A stretch of 58,438 nt of DNA from an uncultured Thiodictyon sp. (GTDB taxonomy: Bacteria; Pseudomonadota; Gammaproteobacteria; Chromatiales; Chromatiaceae): contig NZ_CAJAXH010000081.1 in NCBI RefSeq assembly GCF_903946935.1, positions 1-58,438 on the forward strand. The letters run 5' to 3'. The notes beneath the pieces are model-generated. The model worked only from the letters and a program-made list of their open reading frames with translations. It was not told where the DNA came from and searched no databases. Both the position numbers and the translations under genes were made by a program. Every line of letters begins with the position of its first letter. Within the stretch, counting starts at the first letter, position 1. Of this stretch, positions 150 to 56,772 are shown piece after piece.

Positions 150-283
150 TGTCACGCCAAGGCGCCAAGCTCGCCAAGGCTTTTCAGTGCGTTATCGGCG
201 TTGCGCCAGTCACCCGCAGGGTGAGCTGGATAGTGGCTCTACCCGATTGTATTTCTTGGCGAGCTTGGCGCCTTGGCGTGAGC
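150..283. repeat. Palindromic repeat, 132-bp family, copy 1
   Basis: Terminal inverted repeats related to GCTCACGCCAAGGCGCCAAG on the left and its complement on the right bound about 134 bp. The interior shares a GTTATCGGCG-type core and a CACCCG(A/C) segment with the copy at 21167-21298. A third copy lies inside dnaE2 at 55865-55996. There is no coding capacity of its own; it looks like a non-autonomous MITE- or REP-like element. Confidence 0.7.
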
Positions 284-1295: not shown

Positions 1296-3812
1296 TCATG
1301 GCGCGGTCAGTGAGACCGGCAGCGGCTTGACCTGCCAAATCTTCTGCGCATACTCCCGAATGGCCCGGTCAGAGGAGAACTTGCCCATCCGCGCGACATT
1401 GAGGATGGACATGCGATCCCAGTGCGGGCGGTCGGCCCAGGCCAGGCTCACCCGCTGCTGGCACTCGACATAGGCGCGATAGTCCGCCAGCACCATGAAG
1501 GGGTCCTGGTTGATCAGGTTCTCGGTGAGTGGCCGAAACAGGGCGGTGTCACCGTGGGAGAAGAGCCCGGAGTTGATGAGATCGATGGCCGACTTGAGTT
1601 CGTGATCGTCCCGATAGATCTCCCAGGGCCGATAGCCCTCCGCCTGGCGACGGGCGACCTCGTCCGCGGTCATGCCGAAGAGGAAGAAGTTCTCCGCTCC
1701 GACCTCCTCGCGGATCTCAACGTTGGCCCCGTCGAGGGTGCCGATGGTCAATGCCCCGTTCATCGAGAACTTCATATTGCCGGTCCCGGATGCCTCCTTG
1801 CCGGCGAGTGAGATTTGCTCCGAGATGTCGGCGGCGGGATAGAGGCGTTGGCCGTTCTGAACATTGAAATTGGGCATGAAGGCGACACGCAGATGGCCGT
1901 TGATCTGGGGGTCGTGATTGATGACCTCACCGACGGCGTTGATCAGCTTGATGATGAGCTTGGCCATATAATAGCCGGGGGCCGCCTTGGCGCCGAAGAT
2001 GAAGGTGCGCGGGACAATGGCGTGGTTGGGATTCTGCTTGATGTGCTGGTAGAGGCTGACGATGTGCAGCAAGTTCAGGTGCTGGCGCTTGTATTCGTGC
2101 AGGCGTTTGGCCTGGACATCGAAGAGGCTCTGCGGGTCGACCTTGACCCACGCGTTCTGTCCCAGCCAGGTGGCCAGATTATGCTTGGCGGCGGTCTTGA
2201 CCGCACGCCACTTTTCCTGCAATCCTGCGTCGTCCGCGTAATTCTCCAACGCGCGCAGGCGGTTCAGGTCGCGCAGCCAGCCCTCGTCCCCGCAGGTCTC
2301 GGTGATCAGCGCGGTGAGACGCGGGTTGCACACCGCAATGAAGCGGCGCGGGGTCACGCCATTGGTGACATTGTGAAAGCGTTCCGGCCACAGTTCATAG
2401 AAATCCTTCAACACCGTGGTCTTGACCAGCTCGGAATGCAGCTCGGCTACGCCGTTGACCGCGCTGGAGCCCACCACCGCCAGATTGGCCATCCGCACCC
2501 GCCGACCGCCCTCTTCACCGATCAGCGACATGCGCGCGACCCGGCCCTCATCATTCATGAAACGCACCCGCACCTCGTCCAGGAAGCGGCGGTTGATCTC
2601 GTAGATGATCTCCAGGTGGCGCGGCAGCAGCTTCTCAAACAGCCGCACCGACCAGGTCTCCAGCGCCTCGGGCAAGAGGGTGTGATTGGTATAGCAGAAG
2701 GTCTGGTGGGTGATGCCCCAGGCCTGGTCCCAGCCCATGCCGTGCTCGTCCATCAGCAGCCGCAGGAGTTCAGCTACCGCGATGGCCGGGTGGGTGTCAT
2801 TGAGTTGGGCGACGAACTTATCGGCGAAGGTGTCGAGCGGGCCGACGGTGCCGAGATGCAGCCGGATCATGTCCTGGAGCGAACAGGAGACGAAGAAATA
2901 TTGCTGCTTTAGGCGCAGTTCCTTGCCGGCCTCGGGCTCGTCGTTCGGATAGAGCACCTTGGAGATGGTCTCGGCCTCGATCTTGGCATGGACCGCGCCG
3001 TAATAGTCGCCGGTGTTGAATGACTGGAAGTCGAATGACTCTGGGGCCTCGGATTTCCATAGCCGCAGCAGGCTCACATTGCCGACCCCGTAGCCCATGA
3101 TTGGGGTGTCATAGGCGACCCCGTTGATCTCCATATCCGCAATCCACCGCACCCGCAGGGCGGCGTGCTCGTCGTGATACTGCTCGGTGCGCCCGCCGAA
3201 CTTGACCGGGAAGCGAATCTTATAGCGAGGCAACTCCCATGGATTGCCGTTCTTGAGCCAGGTGTCGCTCTTCTCCACCTGCCAGCCGTCCTCAATCACC
3301 TGGTCGAAGATGCCGAACTCATAGCGGATGCCATAACCGATGGCCGGGATCTGCACCGTGCTCAATGAATCCATATAACAGGCGGCGAGCCGTCCCAGGC
3401 CGCCGTTGCCGAGGCCCGGCTCTTCTTCGGTCTCAAGGATCTGACGCAGGTCCAGCCCGAGTTCGCGCCCGGCCTCCTGTGCGACATCCGTGATCCCCAG
3501 ATTGACCAGATTGTTGAGCAGGTGCGGACCGAGCAGGAATTCGGCGGACAGATAGCAGACGGTGCGCGCCTTGGTGTCGCGGTAGGTCTCGGCACACTTG
3601 ATCCAGCGCCCCAGCAGGCGGTCGCGGACCGTATAGGCGGTGGCCATATAGTTATCGTTGGGGCTGGCGACCTCGCGGAAGCGGCCTTGGACATAGAACA
3701 GGTTGTCGATGAAGGCCCGTTTCAGTGCGTCCTTCGACATGCCGGTGCGGGTGTGCTCGTGGGTCGGAGTGTCCGCTCCGTTCTGGGTTTCTGGCGTTTT
3801 CTCGGTGGGCAT
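1296..3812 (-). CDS. glgP: Glycogen/alpha-glucan phosphorylase (EC 2.4.1.1)
   Basis: 838 residues, the usual length for the family. It releases glucose-1-phosphate from glycogen by phosphorolysis in the cytoplasm. The sequence carries the GT35 signature EASGTGNMKFSMNGAL with the pyridoxal-phosphate lysine at about residue 681, the glycine-rich GLGNGGLGRLAACYMDS block near residue 135, and the conserved NVTNGVTPRRF block near residue 481. The start at 3812 has an AAGAGA site 8 bases upstream; the first 24 residues are polar and variable, so M25 (MSKDAL) is an alternative start. Its promoter region contains a palindromic element at 3856-3982. Phosphoketolase follows on the same strand upstream, suggesting a shared role in mobilising stored carbon. 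Confidence 0.97.
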   Translation of the reverse strand: MPTEKTPETQNGADTPTHEHTRTGMSKDALKRAFIDNLFYVQGRFREVASPNDNYMATAYTVRDRLLGRWIKCAETYRDTKARTVCYLSAEFLLGPHLLNNLVNLGITDVAQEAGRELGLDLRQILETEEEPGLGNGGLGRLAACYMDSLSTVQIPAIGYGIRYEFGIFDQVIEDGWQVEKSDTWLKNGNPWELPRYKIRFPVKFGGRTEQYHDEHAALRVRWIADMEINGVAYDTPIMGYGVGNVSLLRLWKSEAPESFDFQSFNTGDYYGAVHAKIEAETISKVLYPNDEPEAGKELRLKQQYFFVSCSLQDMIRLHLGTVGPLDTFADKFVAQLNDTHPAIAVAELLRLLMDEHGMGWDQAWGITHQTFCYTNHTLLPEALETWSVRLFEKLLPRHLEIIYEINRRFLDEVRVRFMNDEGRVARMSLIGEEGGRRVRMANLAVVGSSAVNGVAELHSELVKTTVLKDFYELWPERFHNVTNGVTPRRFIAVCNPRLTALITETCGDEGWLRDLNRLRALENYADDAGLQEKWRAVKTAAKHNLATWLGQNAWVKVDPQSLFDVQAKRLHEYKRQHLNLLHIVSLYQHIKQNPNHAIVPRTFIFGAKAAPGYYMAKLIIKLINAVGEVINHDPQINGHLRVAFMPNFNVQNGQRLYPAADISEQISLAGKEASGTGNMKFSMNGALTIGTLDGANVEIREEVGAENFFLFGMTADEVARRQAEGYRPWEIYRDDHELKSAIDLINSGLFSHGDTALFRPLTENLINQDPFMVLADYRAYVECQQRVSLAWADRPHWDRMSILNVARMGKFSSDRAIREYAQKIWQVKPLPVSLTAP

Positions 3813-20866: not shown

Positions 20867-21459
20867 AGGGTTGCTGGAGGGCGTAGGTTAGTGGTTGGCA
20901 CGCAAGGTCAGCAGTGCCGAGGTATCGAGCCGGTCGTTCGCTGCGCCTCGCGATCCGCTTGACGGTCGGCGATCAGTCGGGCGGCGGCGCCTCCCTTGCC
21001 ACTGGCACGGAAGGCCGCGATGGAGTCCGCCTGGACCGGGACTGCCGTCTGTCCCCGGGAACTGATAGTGCTGTGCATGATGGCCAGGACAGTGAATTAC
21101 AAATGTTTCCCAAGTGTAATTCACCGACCGCCCACCGGCCACCCCGTCAACGCTAATCCGGCAATTGCTCACGCCAAGGCGCCAAGCTCGCCAAGCAATA
21201 CAAGAAGATAGGGAAGTCACCCAGATCAGCCGTCGGGTGAATGGCCGGGCGCCGATAACAGACTGAAAATCTTGGCGTGCTTGGCGCCTTGGCGTGAGAT
21301 ATTCGGGCTAGGCTCAAGCGTCGTCTGGAATCTGCCAGTTCAGGCGTCTGACAACGGGACGGCCGGGGTAGTCGGGCTGTAACATAGCGCCCCGCACCCC
21401 AGCGGCGGTGGGTGCCCGTTCGGGACGCCCCGCCCCCTTCTCTTCTCCGAGGCGCCAGC
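20867..21459. other. Gene-poor stretch with a dyad and a palindromic repeat
   Basis: No gene could be supported. A dyad GTGAATTAC/GTAATTCAC spans 21092-21124 with a 15-base spacer. The 132-bp repeat follows at 21167-21298. On the minus strand around 20890-21030 a frame reads FRASGKGGAAARLIADRQAD, which has a coding look but no good start; it may be a small gene fragment. Confidence 0.4.
21167..21298. repeat. Palindromic repeat, 132-bp family, copy 2
   Basis: It begins GCTCACGCCAAGGCGCCAAG and ends in the complementary CTTGGCGCCTTGGCGTGAG, 132 bp in all, the same length as the copy inside dnaE2. The interior resembles copy 1 (150-283). It lies in the upstream region of the DUF47-Pit operon. 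Confidence 0.75.
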
Positions 21460-53490: not shown

Positions 53491-56400
53491 ATGGCGACCC
53501 CGGCCTACGCCGAACTCTTCTGCCGTTCCAATTTCTCCTTTCTCCAGGGGGCATCCCACCCGGAGGAACTGGTGCGGCGCGCCCATGCCTTGGGCTATCG
53601 TGCGCTGGCGCTGACCGATCGCTGTTCGCTGGCGGGGGTGGTGCGCGCCCACGCGCAGGCGCGCACCCTGGGGCTCAAGCTGATCGTCGGGGCGGAACTC
53701 CAGGTGGAGTCCGGCCCCCGCCTGGTGGCCCTGGCGATGGACCGGGCGGGCTACGGCAACCTCTCGCACCTGATCACGGTGGCGCGGCGGCGTGCGCCCA
53801 AGGGCCAGGACCGGCTGCTGCCGGCGGACCTGGCCGACGGTCTGCCGGGCTGTCTCACGCTCTGGCTGCCGGACCCACTGGCCGATGCGGCCACGCTGCG
53901 GGCGCAGGGCGCCTGGCTGAACGATCGGTGTCCGGGCCGGCTGTGGATCGGCGTCGTGCAGCAGCGCCGCGGTGCCGACCTGGACTGGCTCGCGCGCCTG
54001 CGTGGGCTGGGTGCGGACCTGGGGCTGCGGCTTACCGCCGGCGGCGAGGTGGCGATGCACACCCCGGGCCGGCGGGCACTGTTGGATGTCCTGACCGCCA
54101 TCCGGCTCGGGGTGCGGGTGGATCAGGTGGGCGCCGCCCTGGCCCAGAATCGGGAGCATCACCTGCGCACCCGCGCCGATCTCGCCCGGTTCTACCCGCC
54201 CGACCTGTTGGCCGAAACCCTGGTGCTGGCGGGGGCCTGCCACTTTTCGCTCGCCGAACTGCGCTATGAGTATCCGGACGAACTGGTCCCGCCGGGTCAG
54301 TCCCCCGCGGCCTATCTGCGACGTCTCACCGAGGAAGGGATCGTCGCCCGCTGGCCGGCCGGTTGTCCGCCCCGGGTGCGGGACCAGATCGAGCACGAGC
54401 TGGCGCTGATCGCTGAACTGACCTATGAGCCCTATTTTCTCACCGTACACGATATCGTCCGCTTCGCCCGCGCCCGCGGCATCCTCTGTCAGGGCAGGGG
54501 CTCCGCGGCCAACTCGGCGGTCTGCTATTGCCTGGGAATCACCGAGGTCGACCCGGCGCGGATGGACATGCTGTTCGAGCGCTTCATCTCCCGGGAGCGG
54601 GGTGAGCCGCCAGATATCGACGTGGACTTCGAGCACCAGCGCCGGGAGGAGGTGATTCAGTACATCTACAGCAAATACGGGCGCGAACGGGCCGCGCTGG
54701 CCGCCGCGGTGGTCACCTATCGGCCCCGGGGCGCGGTGCGCGATGTCGGCAAGGCGCTGGGGATGGACCCAGACCAGCTCGACCGGCTGGCGCGCAATCT
54801 CAATTGGTGGGATGGCGCGGCGCTGCCCCCGCAGCGGCTGCGCGAGGTCGGGCTCGACCCCGATAACCCGCTGGTCGGCAAGACCCTGCGCCTCGTGCAG
54901 GCGATCCTGGGTTGTCCGCGCCACCTGTCCCAGCACGTCGGCGGCTTCGTGATCTCCCGCGGGGCGCTGTCGCGTCTGGTGCCGGTGGAAAACGCGGCGA
55001 TGGCGGGGCGCACGGTGATCCAGTGGGACAAGGACGACCTGGATACACTGGGCCTGCTCAAGGTCGACTGCCTGGCCCTGGGGATGCTCTCGGCCATTCA
55101 CCGCGCCCTGGACCTGATCAATGGCGTGCGCGGGACCCGTCTCACCGTCGCCGACATCCCGGCGGAGGACCCGGACGTCTACCGCATGATCCAGCGCGCC
55201 GAGACCACCGGGGTCTTCCAGATCGAGTCGCGCGCTCAGATGGCGATGCTGCCGCGCCTGAAGCCCGCCTGTTTCTATGACCTGGTGATCGAGGTGGCCA
55301 TCGTGCGCCCCGGTCCCATCCAGGGCGATATGGTCCATCCGTATCTGCGCCGCCGGCAGGGGTTGGAGCCGGTGAGCTATCCCTCCGCGGCGCTCCAGGA
55401 GGTCCTGGGGCGGACGCTGGGGGTGCCGATCTTCCAGGAGCAGGTGATCAAGGTGGCAACGGTGGCGGCCGGGTTCTCGCCGGGCGAGGCGGATCAGGTG
55501 CGCCGCTCCATGGCCGCCTGGCGTCGGCGCGGCGGTCTCACGGCGCTGCGTGGGCGGCTCCTGGGCGGCATGCTGGAGCGCGGCTATACCCGCGAATTTG
55601 CCGAACAGATCTACCACCAGATCCTGGGCTTCGGCGAATACGGCTTCCCCGAGTCACATGCCGCGAGCTTCGCACTCCTGGTCTATGTGTCCGCCTGGCT
55701 CAAGCACCACGAGCCGGCCGCCTTCTTTGCGGCCCTCTTGAACAGCCAACCCATGGGGTTTTATGCCCCGGCGCAGTTGGTCCGCGAGGCCCGGCGCCAA
55801 GGGGTGGACGTGCGCCCGGTGGACGTGACCGCGAGCGAGTGGGACTGCACCCTGGAGCCCATTGGCTCACGCCAAGACGCCAAGACGCCAAGTCAAACAA
55901 CGGTGTTGGGGAACTTCCCAACGCCTGCGCCGGATGTCTCGTCCGCTGCCGATCACACATCGGAAAAACTTGGCGCCTTGGCGCCTTGGCGTGAGCATTC
56001 TTCGTCTCAGGTTGGGGCTCCGGAGGGTGCTCTGGAAACCCCGACGCTGCGGTTGGGCCTGCGTCTGGTGAAGGGCCTGTCCCGCGCAGGTGCCGAGCGG
56101 CTGGTGGCGGCGCGGGGGGCGGCGCCCTGGTCGGACCTCAATGACCTGATGGCCCGCGCCGCGCTGGAGCGGGCCGACCTCAAGGCCCTGGCCCATGCGG
56201 ATGCCCTGGCGCCCCTGGCGGGTCATCGACATCGGGCGGCCTGGTCAGTTTTGGGGTCGGTCGGTCTGCGCCGTGCGCCGCAGCCCGTCCAGGGTGAATT
56301 GGCGCTCCCGCCCCCGGCCGACCCCGCCGCCGCGTCCCCGCTGCCCGTCCCCACCGAACGGGCGGAGATCGTCGCCGACTACGCCGCCCTGGGGCTGAGT

Positions 56401-56772
56401 CTGCGCCGCCACCCGCTGGCCCTGCTGCGCCCGCGCCTCAACGAGTGGCGCCTGCTCACTGCACTGGAGGTGGGCGAGGTGCCGCCGGGGGCGCGGATCG
56501 CGACCGCCGGTCTGGTGATCAACCGTCAGCGTCCGGGCGCCGCCAACGGGGTAACCTTCGTCACCCTGGAGGACGAGACGGGGCAGGTCAATCTGGTGGT
56601 CTGGAAGCAACTCGCCGAACGTCAACGCTCAGTGCTCTTGGGGTCACGGTTGCTGGGTGTCTATGGTGAGGTCCAGCGGGAGGCGGGTGTGACCCACCTG
56701 ATCGCCCGGCGCCTGCTGGACTACTCGGCCCTGCTGGGCGGGCTCGTCACCCGCTCGCGGGACTTCTGCTGA
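53491..56772 (+). CDS. dnaE2: Error-prone DNA polymerase III alpha subunit DnaE2
   Basis: 1093 residues. N-terminal PHP domain (YAELFCRSNFSFLQGASHPE, ALALTDRCSLAGVVRAH), polymerase palm with GRGSAANSAVCYCLGIT and PPDIDVDFEHQRREEVIQYI (catalytic aspartates), late NLVVWKQLAERQR OB-fold and the usual ending SRDF. It does translesion synthesis in the SOS response with ImuA/ImuB; neither is encoded here. Residues about 792-835 are an in-frame 44-codon insertion made of a 132-bp palindromic repeat, lying between EWDCTLEP and TLRLGLRLVKGL, just ahead of the tandem HhH region. Without it the length is normal (about 1049). Confidence 0.95.
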   Translation: MATPAYAELFCRSNFSFLQGASHPEELVRRAHALGYRALALTDRCSLAGVVRAHAQARTLGLKLIVGAELQVESGPRLVALAMDRAGYGNLSHLITVARRRAPKGQDRLLPADLADGLPGCLTLWLPDPLADAATLRAQGAWLNDRCPGRLWIGVVQQRRGADLDWLARLRGLGADLGLRLTAGGEVAMHTPGRRALLDVLTAIRLGVRVDQVGAALAQNREHHLRTRADLARFYPPDLLAETLVLAGACHFSLAELRYEYPDELVPPGQSPAAYLRRLTEEGIVARWPAGCPPRVRDQIEHELALIAELTYEPYFLTVHDIVRFARARGILCQGRGSAANSAVCYCLGITEVDPARMDMLFERFISRERGEPPDIDVDFEHQRREEVIQYIYSKYGRERAALAAAVVTYRPRGAVRDVGKALGMDPDQLDRLARNLNWWDGAALPPQRLREVGLDPDNPLVGKTLRLVQAILGCPRHLSQHVGGFVISRGALSRLVPVENAAMAGRTVIQWDKDDLDTLGLLKVDCLALGMLSAIHRALDLINGVRGTRLTVADIPAEDPDVYRMIQRAETTGVFQIESRAQMAMLPRLKPACFYDLVIEVAIVRPGPIQGDMVHPYLRRRQGLEPVSYPSAALQEVLGRTLGVPIFQEQVIKVATVAAGFSPGEADQVRRSMAAWRRRGGLTALRGRLLGGMLERGYTREFAEQIYHQILGFGEYGFPESHAASFALLVYVSAWLKHHEPAAFFAALLNSQPMGFYAPAQLVREARRQGVDVRPVDVTASEWDCTLEPIGSRQDAKTPSQTTVLGNFPTPAPDVSSAADHTSEKLGALAPWREHSSSQVGAPEGALETPTLRLGLRLVKGLSRAGAERLVAARGAAPWSDLNDLMARAALERADLKALAHADALAPLAGHRHRAAWSVLGSVGLRRAPQPVQGELALPPPADPAAASPLPVPTERAEIVADYAALGLSLRRHPLALLRPRLNEWRLLTALEVGEVPPGARIATAGLVINRQRPGAANGVTFVTLEDETGQVNLVVWKQLAERQRSVLLGSRLLGVYGEVQREAGVTHLIARRLLDYSALLGGLVTRSRDFC
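55865..55996. repeat. Palindromic repeat, 132-bp family, copy 3, inside dnaE2
   Basis: It starts GCTCACGCCAAGACGCCAAG and ends CTTGGCGCCTTGGCGTGAGC. It is exactly 132 bp, a multiple of three, and contains no in-frame stop, so the polymerase frame is kept. The other copies are at 150-283 and 21167-21298. Confidence 0.8.

Follow-up and report, generated by a model that had tools for sequence, protein, structure and literature searches.

The locus described here raises the question of how a palindromic repeat comes to lie in frame inside a conserved DNA polymerase, and whether its host protein is harmed by it, makes use of it or merely tolerates it. The window, i.e., the whole stretch of DNA analysed, is contig C81 (58,438 bases) of a draft assembly that comprises 6.0 Mb on 321 contigs, and its dnaE2 gene (53491..56772, plus strand) encodes an error-prone DNA polymerase III alpha-type protein of 1093 amino acids in one uninterrupted frame with no stop, whose product shows the Pfam domains DNA_pol3_alpha, finger, PHP, HHH_6 and OB-fold. 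No long plus-strand frame was seen directly upstream in any of the three frames between 51000 and 53500. Inside the gene, the 132 bases 55865-55996 (GCTCACGCCAAG...CTTGGCGTGAGC) are flanked by the blocks EWDCTLEP and LRLGLRLVKGL, and the proposal of an earlier interpretation made from the letters of the window alone (hereafter, the sequence-only reading) that a palindromic repeat sits there in frame was borne out. Both flanks belong to one protein, as judged from Pfam and relatives, and on either side of the insert DnaE2 keeps the residues that are invariant among 16 DnaE2 proteins. The core of the insert is a palindrome of 130 nt (CTCACG...CGTGAG; 55866..55995, plus strand) that encodes SRQDAKTPSQTTVLGNFPTPAPDVSSAADHTSEKLGALAPWRE; its 5' arm of 27 nt (55866..55892, plus strand) is built of 8-nt units (ACGCCAAG), and its 3' arm, likewise 27 nt (55969..55995, plus strand), complements the former except at two positions where A stands opposite C. 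The RNA fold predicted for 55860-56000 has -80.4 kcal/mol (z -9.3), with none of 200 shuffles as good. A profile of conserved flanks and a search for ends place the whole inserted segment at approximately 55851..56011 (plus strand). Its right edge is clear at 56011 (...TCTCAGG), while the first bases at its uncertain left edge coincide with native CTLE codons, so that the insertion point is approximate, and we saw no clean target duplication around this copy.

The dnaE2 palindrome is one member of a large family. Within the window, arm matches with up to three mismatches number 6 versus 0.04 expected, and two further copies are an intergenic palindrome of 131 nt (21168..21298, plus strand), found from the sequence and by arm search, and a third copy at about 151..282 on the minus strand that the arm search recovered. 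The sequence-only reading had considered the dnaE2 and the intergenic segments as 132-bp copies with identical ends, which is nearly but not exactly right: the copy at 21167-21298 does start with GCTCACG, but the base after CGTGAG is A and not C, and the two palindromes are of near-equal length only (130 nt at 55866-55995 versus 131 nt at 21168-21298). Genome-wide, the arm 11-mer CTTGGCGTGAG occurs 354 times (189+165) and its reversed control not at all, and 51 whole palindromes satisfy a strict pattern. The sequence-only reading had staked itself on the presence of other copies in the genome, and a full-element profile indeed yields 184 distinct hits, 154 of them near-full, in 693,213 bases of sampled loci (overlaps included), a sample that is biased to copies from earlier searches and covers part of the genome rather than the whole.

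Conservation extends beyond the palindrome into its flanks (5'-CCTAAATCCGGGAATTG leading into CTCACG and approximately AACYGCTCTTTCTAGG following CGTGAG), and the element measures about 163-165 bp with the ends CCTAA...TAGG (CCTAAATCCGG...TAGG). Its inverted termini consist of CCTAA/TAGG plus the long inner arms, the two outer ends being alike over a few bases only. Both ends are recognisable in 41 of the 84 copies examined, most commonly 165 bp apart (14/41), and nine of these 41 copies show a perfect 5-bp duplication where 0.49 would be expected and at most 5 were seen in 2000 shuffles, with no such signal at 3, 4 or 6-9 bp. All nine perfect duplications read NTNAN; none of them belongs to a copy in a gene, though the flanking 5-mers of the copy in a YgiQ-like gene (see below) are alike in four of five bases. 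Given its conserved ends and 5-bp duplication, the repeat family inserted into dnaE2 is a MITE, i.e., a non-autonomous transposable element, and the mobile unit is this element of ca. 163 bp with longer ends and a target duplication instead of the 132-bp segment that had been proposed. In about 0.69 Mb of sampled loci we saw no transposase or autonomous partner with the same ends. At two of these loci (L262, about 4427; L068, about 5237), family-like outer ends are joined to unrelated interiors, from which one might speculate that several MITE families perhaps share ends and a transposase; elsewhere, a miniature of ~48 bp (L021, about 1484-1531, on G000 contig C17) has both family ends joined with the interior absent. 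A scan of the window at Rfam gathering thresholds gave no match. At E 1e-6, a profile of the embedded peptide finds 4 of 146 sampled genomes of the bacterial family, all from the host's own genus, which by kinship is probably Thiodictyon of the Chromatiaceae; among 398 genomes sampled across the phylum, it finds one, the genome studied here, and at E 0.01 it finds all eight genomes of the genus.

A profile of eight embedded peptides was run genome-wide (150 of 889 candidates scored, with the best hits in long frames), and copies were called genic from the coding scores of their flanks, Pfam and relatives. By this definition, 7 of the 154 near-full copies lie in protein genes. The inserts are firmly in frame in DnaE2 (window), HrpB (C123), an AcrB-type RND pump (C14), a YgiQ-type radical SAM protein (C255) that we take to be YgiQ-like and a protein of 844 amino acids with no Pfam match (C87). 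We count only these five as firm because the copies in a DUF4129 protein (C88), 27 codons before its end, and in an APH-type protein (C256), 11 codons into the open frame, could be tail and leader insertions, respectively. All seven copies share one orientation and one frame (SRQDAKTP...LGALASWRE) with a palindrome of 129-130 nt, and no in-frame insert was accepted among the other 147 near-full copies. The host proteins are mutually unrelated by Pfam, and the peptide of the dnaE2 insert shares 40-54% identity with those embedded in seven other frames, of which one is doubtful. The suggestion that a mobile family can create protein-coding inserts is supported by these findings, including the uniform phase of the copies in genes.

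Several frames were too doubtful to be counted as genic. These comprise L089/C193 (a frame of 347 amino acids with no Pfam match and a good peptide match), L141 (345 amino acids, flagged as in frame and open, in opposite orientation and with a poorly coding left flank), L124 (a frame of 441 amino acids, opposite orientation) and L131 (218 amino acids); none of the latter three has a Pfam match, and L141 and L124 look like shadow frames. The peptide hits on C137 and C41 sit at frame starts, and in genome G003 a hit in a frame of 832 amino acids appears, on visual inspection, to precede a CoA-transferase-like gene. Another 15 copies have coding flanks on one strand and are not open in-frame inserts. 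In eight of them, the upstream frame ends no more than 12 nt from the edge of the element (e.g., L093 at 2564, L290 at 2200 and L131 at 1481), and the element may often supply a stop codon. Five of the remaining seven pairs of flanks were passed through Pfam, with different families on each side in one case and a match on at most one side in four, and no disruption of a gene by the element was demonstrated in the 13 of 15 copies examined in this way (all but L257 and L176). In a plasmid collection, the dnaE2 element matched a single record over 27 nt, plasmid pTs417 of Candidatus Thiodictyon syntrophicum (NZ_CP020371.1). This plasmid carries a family copy (L382, about 2890-3030) at the 3' end of pglX, where it supplies the last codons of the annotated BREX-2 methyltransferase gene as a tail insertion. 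In viral contigs, no relative of the YgiQ-like insert was found.

Close relatives largely preserve the empty sites. The sequence-only reading called for a comparison of DnaE2 proteins, and the DnaE2 proteins of six congeners and of eleven additional relatives turned out to lack the insert. Similarly, all aligned relatives of HrpB (6/6), the RND pump (3/3), the YgiQ-like protein (7/7), the DUF4129 protein (5/5) and the APH-type protein (4/4) do without it, counts that cover the aligned relatives as a subset of all homologue hits. These relatives vary in length at the respective sites, indicating that the element occupies positions at which its host proteins can accommodate change. The YgiQ-like copy, with an element of 163 bp, best fits the expectation that 163 + 5 bp add 56 codons: its host protein is longer by 56 residues than those of G001, G004 and G006 (hand count), by 59 than that of G003 and by 64 than that of G007. 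For HrpB, the RND pump and DnaE2, the net length relative to empty sites is not 56 codons because the linkers themselves vary.

One insertion can be placed in time. The protein of 844 amino acids (L173, G000:C87) and its orthologue of 828 amino acids (L106, G003:C314) carry it at the same place, whereas it is absent from G001, G004, G005, G006 and G007, so that by its distribution among these sequences it is older than the split of the two species, i.e., inherited. The two inserts are 82% identical with no indels and no stops, and dN/dS amounts to 0.73 in the shared insert (with few sites) versus 0.29 and 0.35 in its flanks. Across six comparable genic cores, divergence by codon position is flat (0.31/0.26/0.32). 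From this relaxed dN/dS and the flat codon positions it follows that the peptide is not visibly constrained though the frame is kept, and the inserted peptide appears to be a tolerated passenger under no visible protein-level constraint. On the same two measures, we rejected the reading that selection reveals a function of the peptide.

Why, then, are the copies in genes so uniform? In a tree of all 154 copies, the seven genic ones fall into a single clade of 39 copies (support 0.95), and 7/39 in this clade versus 0/115 among the majority-form copies outside gives a Fisher p of 4.3e-5, which is not corrected for kinship; given their common clade, the genic copies are not independent draws. Taken together, the 32 clade members outside genes yield a consensus (164 columns, including one that we assigned to the flank by comparison with the majority form) that can be read without a stop along its whole length in the same frame as in the genes (PESGNFSRQGAKTPRK...LGVLAPWRENFSLR), although only nine of these 32 are individually open in it. 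With 163 bp, insertion plus the 5-bp duplication adds 168 bp or 56 codons and keeps the frame. The consensus of the 115 majority copies is 165 bp long and is likewise open, though in a frame of the opposite strand, which 52 of these copies retain intact, but 165 + 5 = 170 bp is not a multiple of three and would shift the frame of any gene hit. In line with this arithmetic, the TCACG..CGTGA core is 128 nt long in all six measurable genic copies, and only 27 of 136 other measurable copies fall into the same length class modulo 3 (p 1.1e-4), a result that follows in part from the definition, as an insert in frame has to fit. What the definition does not dictate is that all of them share one orientation, one frame and one clade. 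Nor is openness by itself a sufficient reason for the use of one frame, because six of the seven genic copies can also be read through in one frame of the opposite strand and four of seven in another frame of the same strand, and because so few of the non-genic clade members are themselves open.

The insertion site within DnaE2 deserves attention of its own. The sequence-only reading had the insert just precede the HhH region; in fact it falls within residues 771-915, the stretch assigned to the Pfam HHH_6 model. The DnaE of Taq (2hpi) has few residues at this place, between two segments that are conserved in the profile of 16 DnaE2 proteins, and the place is probably a surface turn. We compared 96 DnaE2 proteins (at least one pair of which, L037 and L296, is the same record); the database search for DnaE2 matched at least 595 stretches, of which 80 were kept. 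Between CTLE and LRLG, the DnaE2 of the window has a segment of 63 residues, compared with a median of 9 (range 3-83) for the other 95 proteins, and 19 of the 96 have linkers of at least 20 residues. A long unrelated segment at the same place, as named by the sequence-only reading as evidence against itself, is found in none of the congeners. Some of the more distant DnaE2 proteins do have one, and several such segments are palindromic repeats themselves. In 4 of the 19 long linkers (the window, L302, L334 and L375), the palindrome folds with a z below -8, and the next has -3.2. Exact copies of the arm are repeated in their own genomes 210 times for L375 and 72 times for L302 (control 0), while for L334 the only exact match is in the dnaE2 region itself; the linker of L373 includes a stretch of 21 nt that occurs 12 times in its genome, and the fold of the whole linker is not unusual. 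Unrelated multicopy palindromes thus occupy the same place of DnaE2 in two further genomes and perhaps in four, in counts that cover DnaE2 alone with no control protein and so give no rate relative to other proteins. As a separate observation, the DnaE2 linker of a Rhodoferax MAG (L350, at about 3907) has 77 residues with LGSDPNSG twice and a fold z of -1.5 and may be another repeat inside DnaE2.

By far the best account of these data, in our view, is that the dnaE2 insert is a resident MITE copy, that a frame-keeping open subfamily lengthens tolerant proteins, and that the inserted peptide then drifts. A transposase supplied in trans would recognise the CCTAA...TAGG ends and, as the duplications suggest, make staggered cuts, 5 bp apart, at NTNAN targets. 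A copy of the ~163-bp subfamily, which can be read through from one end to the other in a single orientation and frame, that lands in the right phase would then lengthen the protein by 168 bp or 56 codons instead of breaking it, and insertions into variable linkers would be the ones that survive. In dnaE2, this site would be the point inside HHH_6 at which DnaE2 proteins mostly carry some nine residues. From then on, the frame would be kept while the peptide drifts, and we infer that the insert is translated and nearly neutral for the enzyme. Its presence in frame is in keeping with a length that preserves the reading frame, with the openness of that frame and with a site that accommodates inserts.

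A more ambitious version would see the 163-bp subfamily as a selfish element fitted to genes, its ancestor open end to end in one frame and its length plus duplication frame-keeping, and the place in DnaE2 as a recurrent landing site of unrelated palindromes that perhaps tunes mutagenesis; we consider this combined scenario rather unlikely. Similarly unlikely, by a hair more so, is that dnaE2 is impaired and on its way out because the mRNA hairpin lowers translation or invites RNase III. The predicted hairpin of the insert, with -80.4 kcal/mol, could be taken in favour of this, and RNase III cutting has been proposed for NEMIS hairpins (PMC2229807, in the part of the article available), but the frame of 1093 codons is intact with invariant residues kept on both sides, and the same kind of insert is open in seven genes. 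It is more doubtful still that the insert has been put to use and is kept by selection because it alters the activity, partners or stability of DnaE2, e.g., by a mutator effect. Such a role could be read into the unrelated palindromes at the same place of DnaE2 in other lineages, into the one other insertion that was kept since before two species split and into the many intragenic REPs in DNA repair genes, for which a mutator effect has been speculated upon (PMC3733652). Against it stand the flat divergence by codon position and the relaxed dN/dS, measures that come from a comparison among genic copies and from the insert shared by the proteins of 844 and 828 amino acids, the dnaE2 insert having been found in this genome only, as well as the lack of relationship between the host proteins and the fact that congeners do without the insert. 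Repeats are where assemblies fail, and this is a draft of 321 contigs, yet an assembly artefact or chimera is very improbable with the same in-frame arrangement in several genes, an insertion common to G003 and both dnaE2 flanks from one protein. Finally, a lineage-specific expansion of a linker that ranges from 3 to 83 residues in the 95 other DnaE2 proteins, with a likeness to the repeat by chance, has next to no credibility, as such chance resemblance is excluded by the hairpin z of -9.3, by copy counts such as 6 arm matches against 0.04 expected and by the 40-54% peptide identity.

Among titles and abstract openings listed for Chromatiaceae miniature inverted repeats or Thiodictyon repeats, we found no description of this MITE family. 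The family is new, and the kind of event, with protein-embedded palindromes in general and REPs in DnaE2 in particular, has already been published. What it adds is a clear example, from beyond the Rickettsiales, of a mobile palindrome that writes peptides into conserved enzymes; it comes with a target duplication, with sites still empty in close relatives, with one dated insertion and with a simple sum (163 + 5 bp = 56 codons) that fits the entry of one subfamily into genes while the abundant one was not seen to enter any. The sequence-only reading had framed such inserts as a matter of Rickettsia, which proved too narrow: ERIC, YPAL, Correia and other elements are also named in this context (PMC2229807 and PMC10969869, as far as the available parts of both extend), in-frame MITEs are known in enterobacteria (PMC2229807, same part), in-frame cases are on record in Coxiella (PMC5896051, in the portion available), and REPs inside DnaE2 genes had been reported before (PMC3733652).

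Among the close parallels by description are the Rickettsia palindromic elements (RPEs; Ogata et al. 2000/2002), which the accessible portions of these articles present as palindromes of 100-170 bp with many copies that lie in frame in unrelated conserved proteins and encode a conserved peptide; in Rickettsia conorii, there are 44 RPEs of ~150 bp, nearly half of them in frame in genes (PMC10969869, available part). We set RPEs apart by description and not by sequence. The host here is a purple sulfur bacterium, kin of the Chromatiaceae, and not Rickettsia; the element makes a 5-bp target duplication where the table in PMC2229807 has a "?" for RPE; and 7/154 copies are in genes versus nearly half according to the part of PMC10969869 cited above. 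YPAL / RU-2 of Yersinia, also compared by description, resembles our family as a unit of 168 bp with a contiguous frame of 56 amino acids and in-frame fusions, but the fusion highlighted in the available text concerns a putative exported protein and is not an insert in a conserved enzyme (PMC2229807). For Correia/NEMIS of Neisseria, the same excerpt describes an open form of 107 bp in genes and a closed form of 155 bp that is almost only intergenic (PMC2229807), a pair of size classes reminiscent of the two classes found here, which in contrast are just 2 bp apart (163 versus 165) and of which the majority class also has an open frame. The GTAG/CGTC REPs are a further parallel as palindromic repeats within DnaE2 and other repair genes that are thought to lie in flexible linkers or loops (PMC3733652). 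They differ from the element described here, which has 163-165 bp, CCTAA/TAGG ends and a 5-bp duplication, by their size of 20-40 bp and a GTAG or CGTC end, and this place in DnaE2, with unrelated palindromes elsewhere, offers an inroad to whether such inserts alter a mutagenic polymerase or are tolerated by it.
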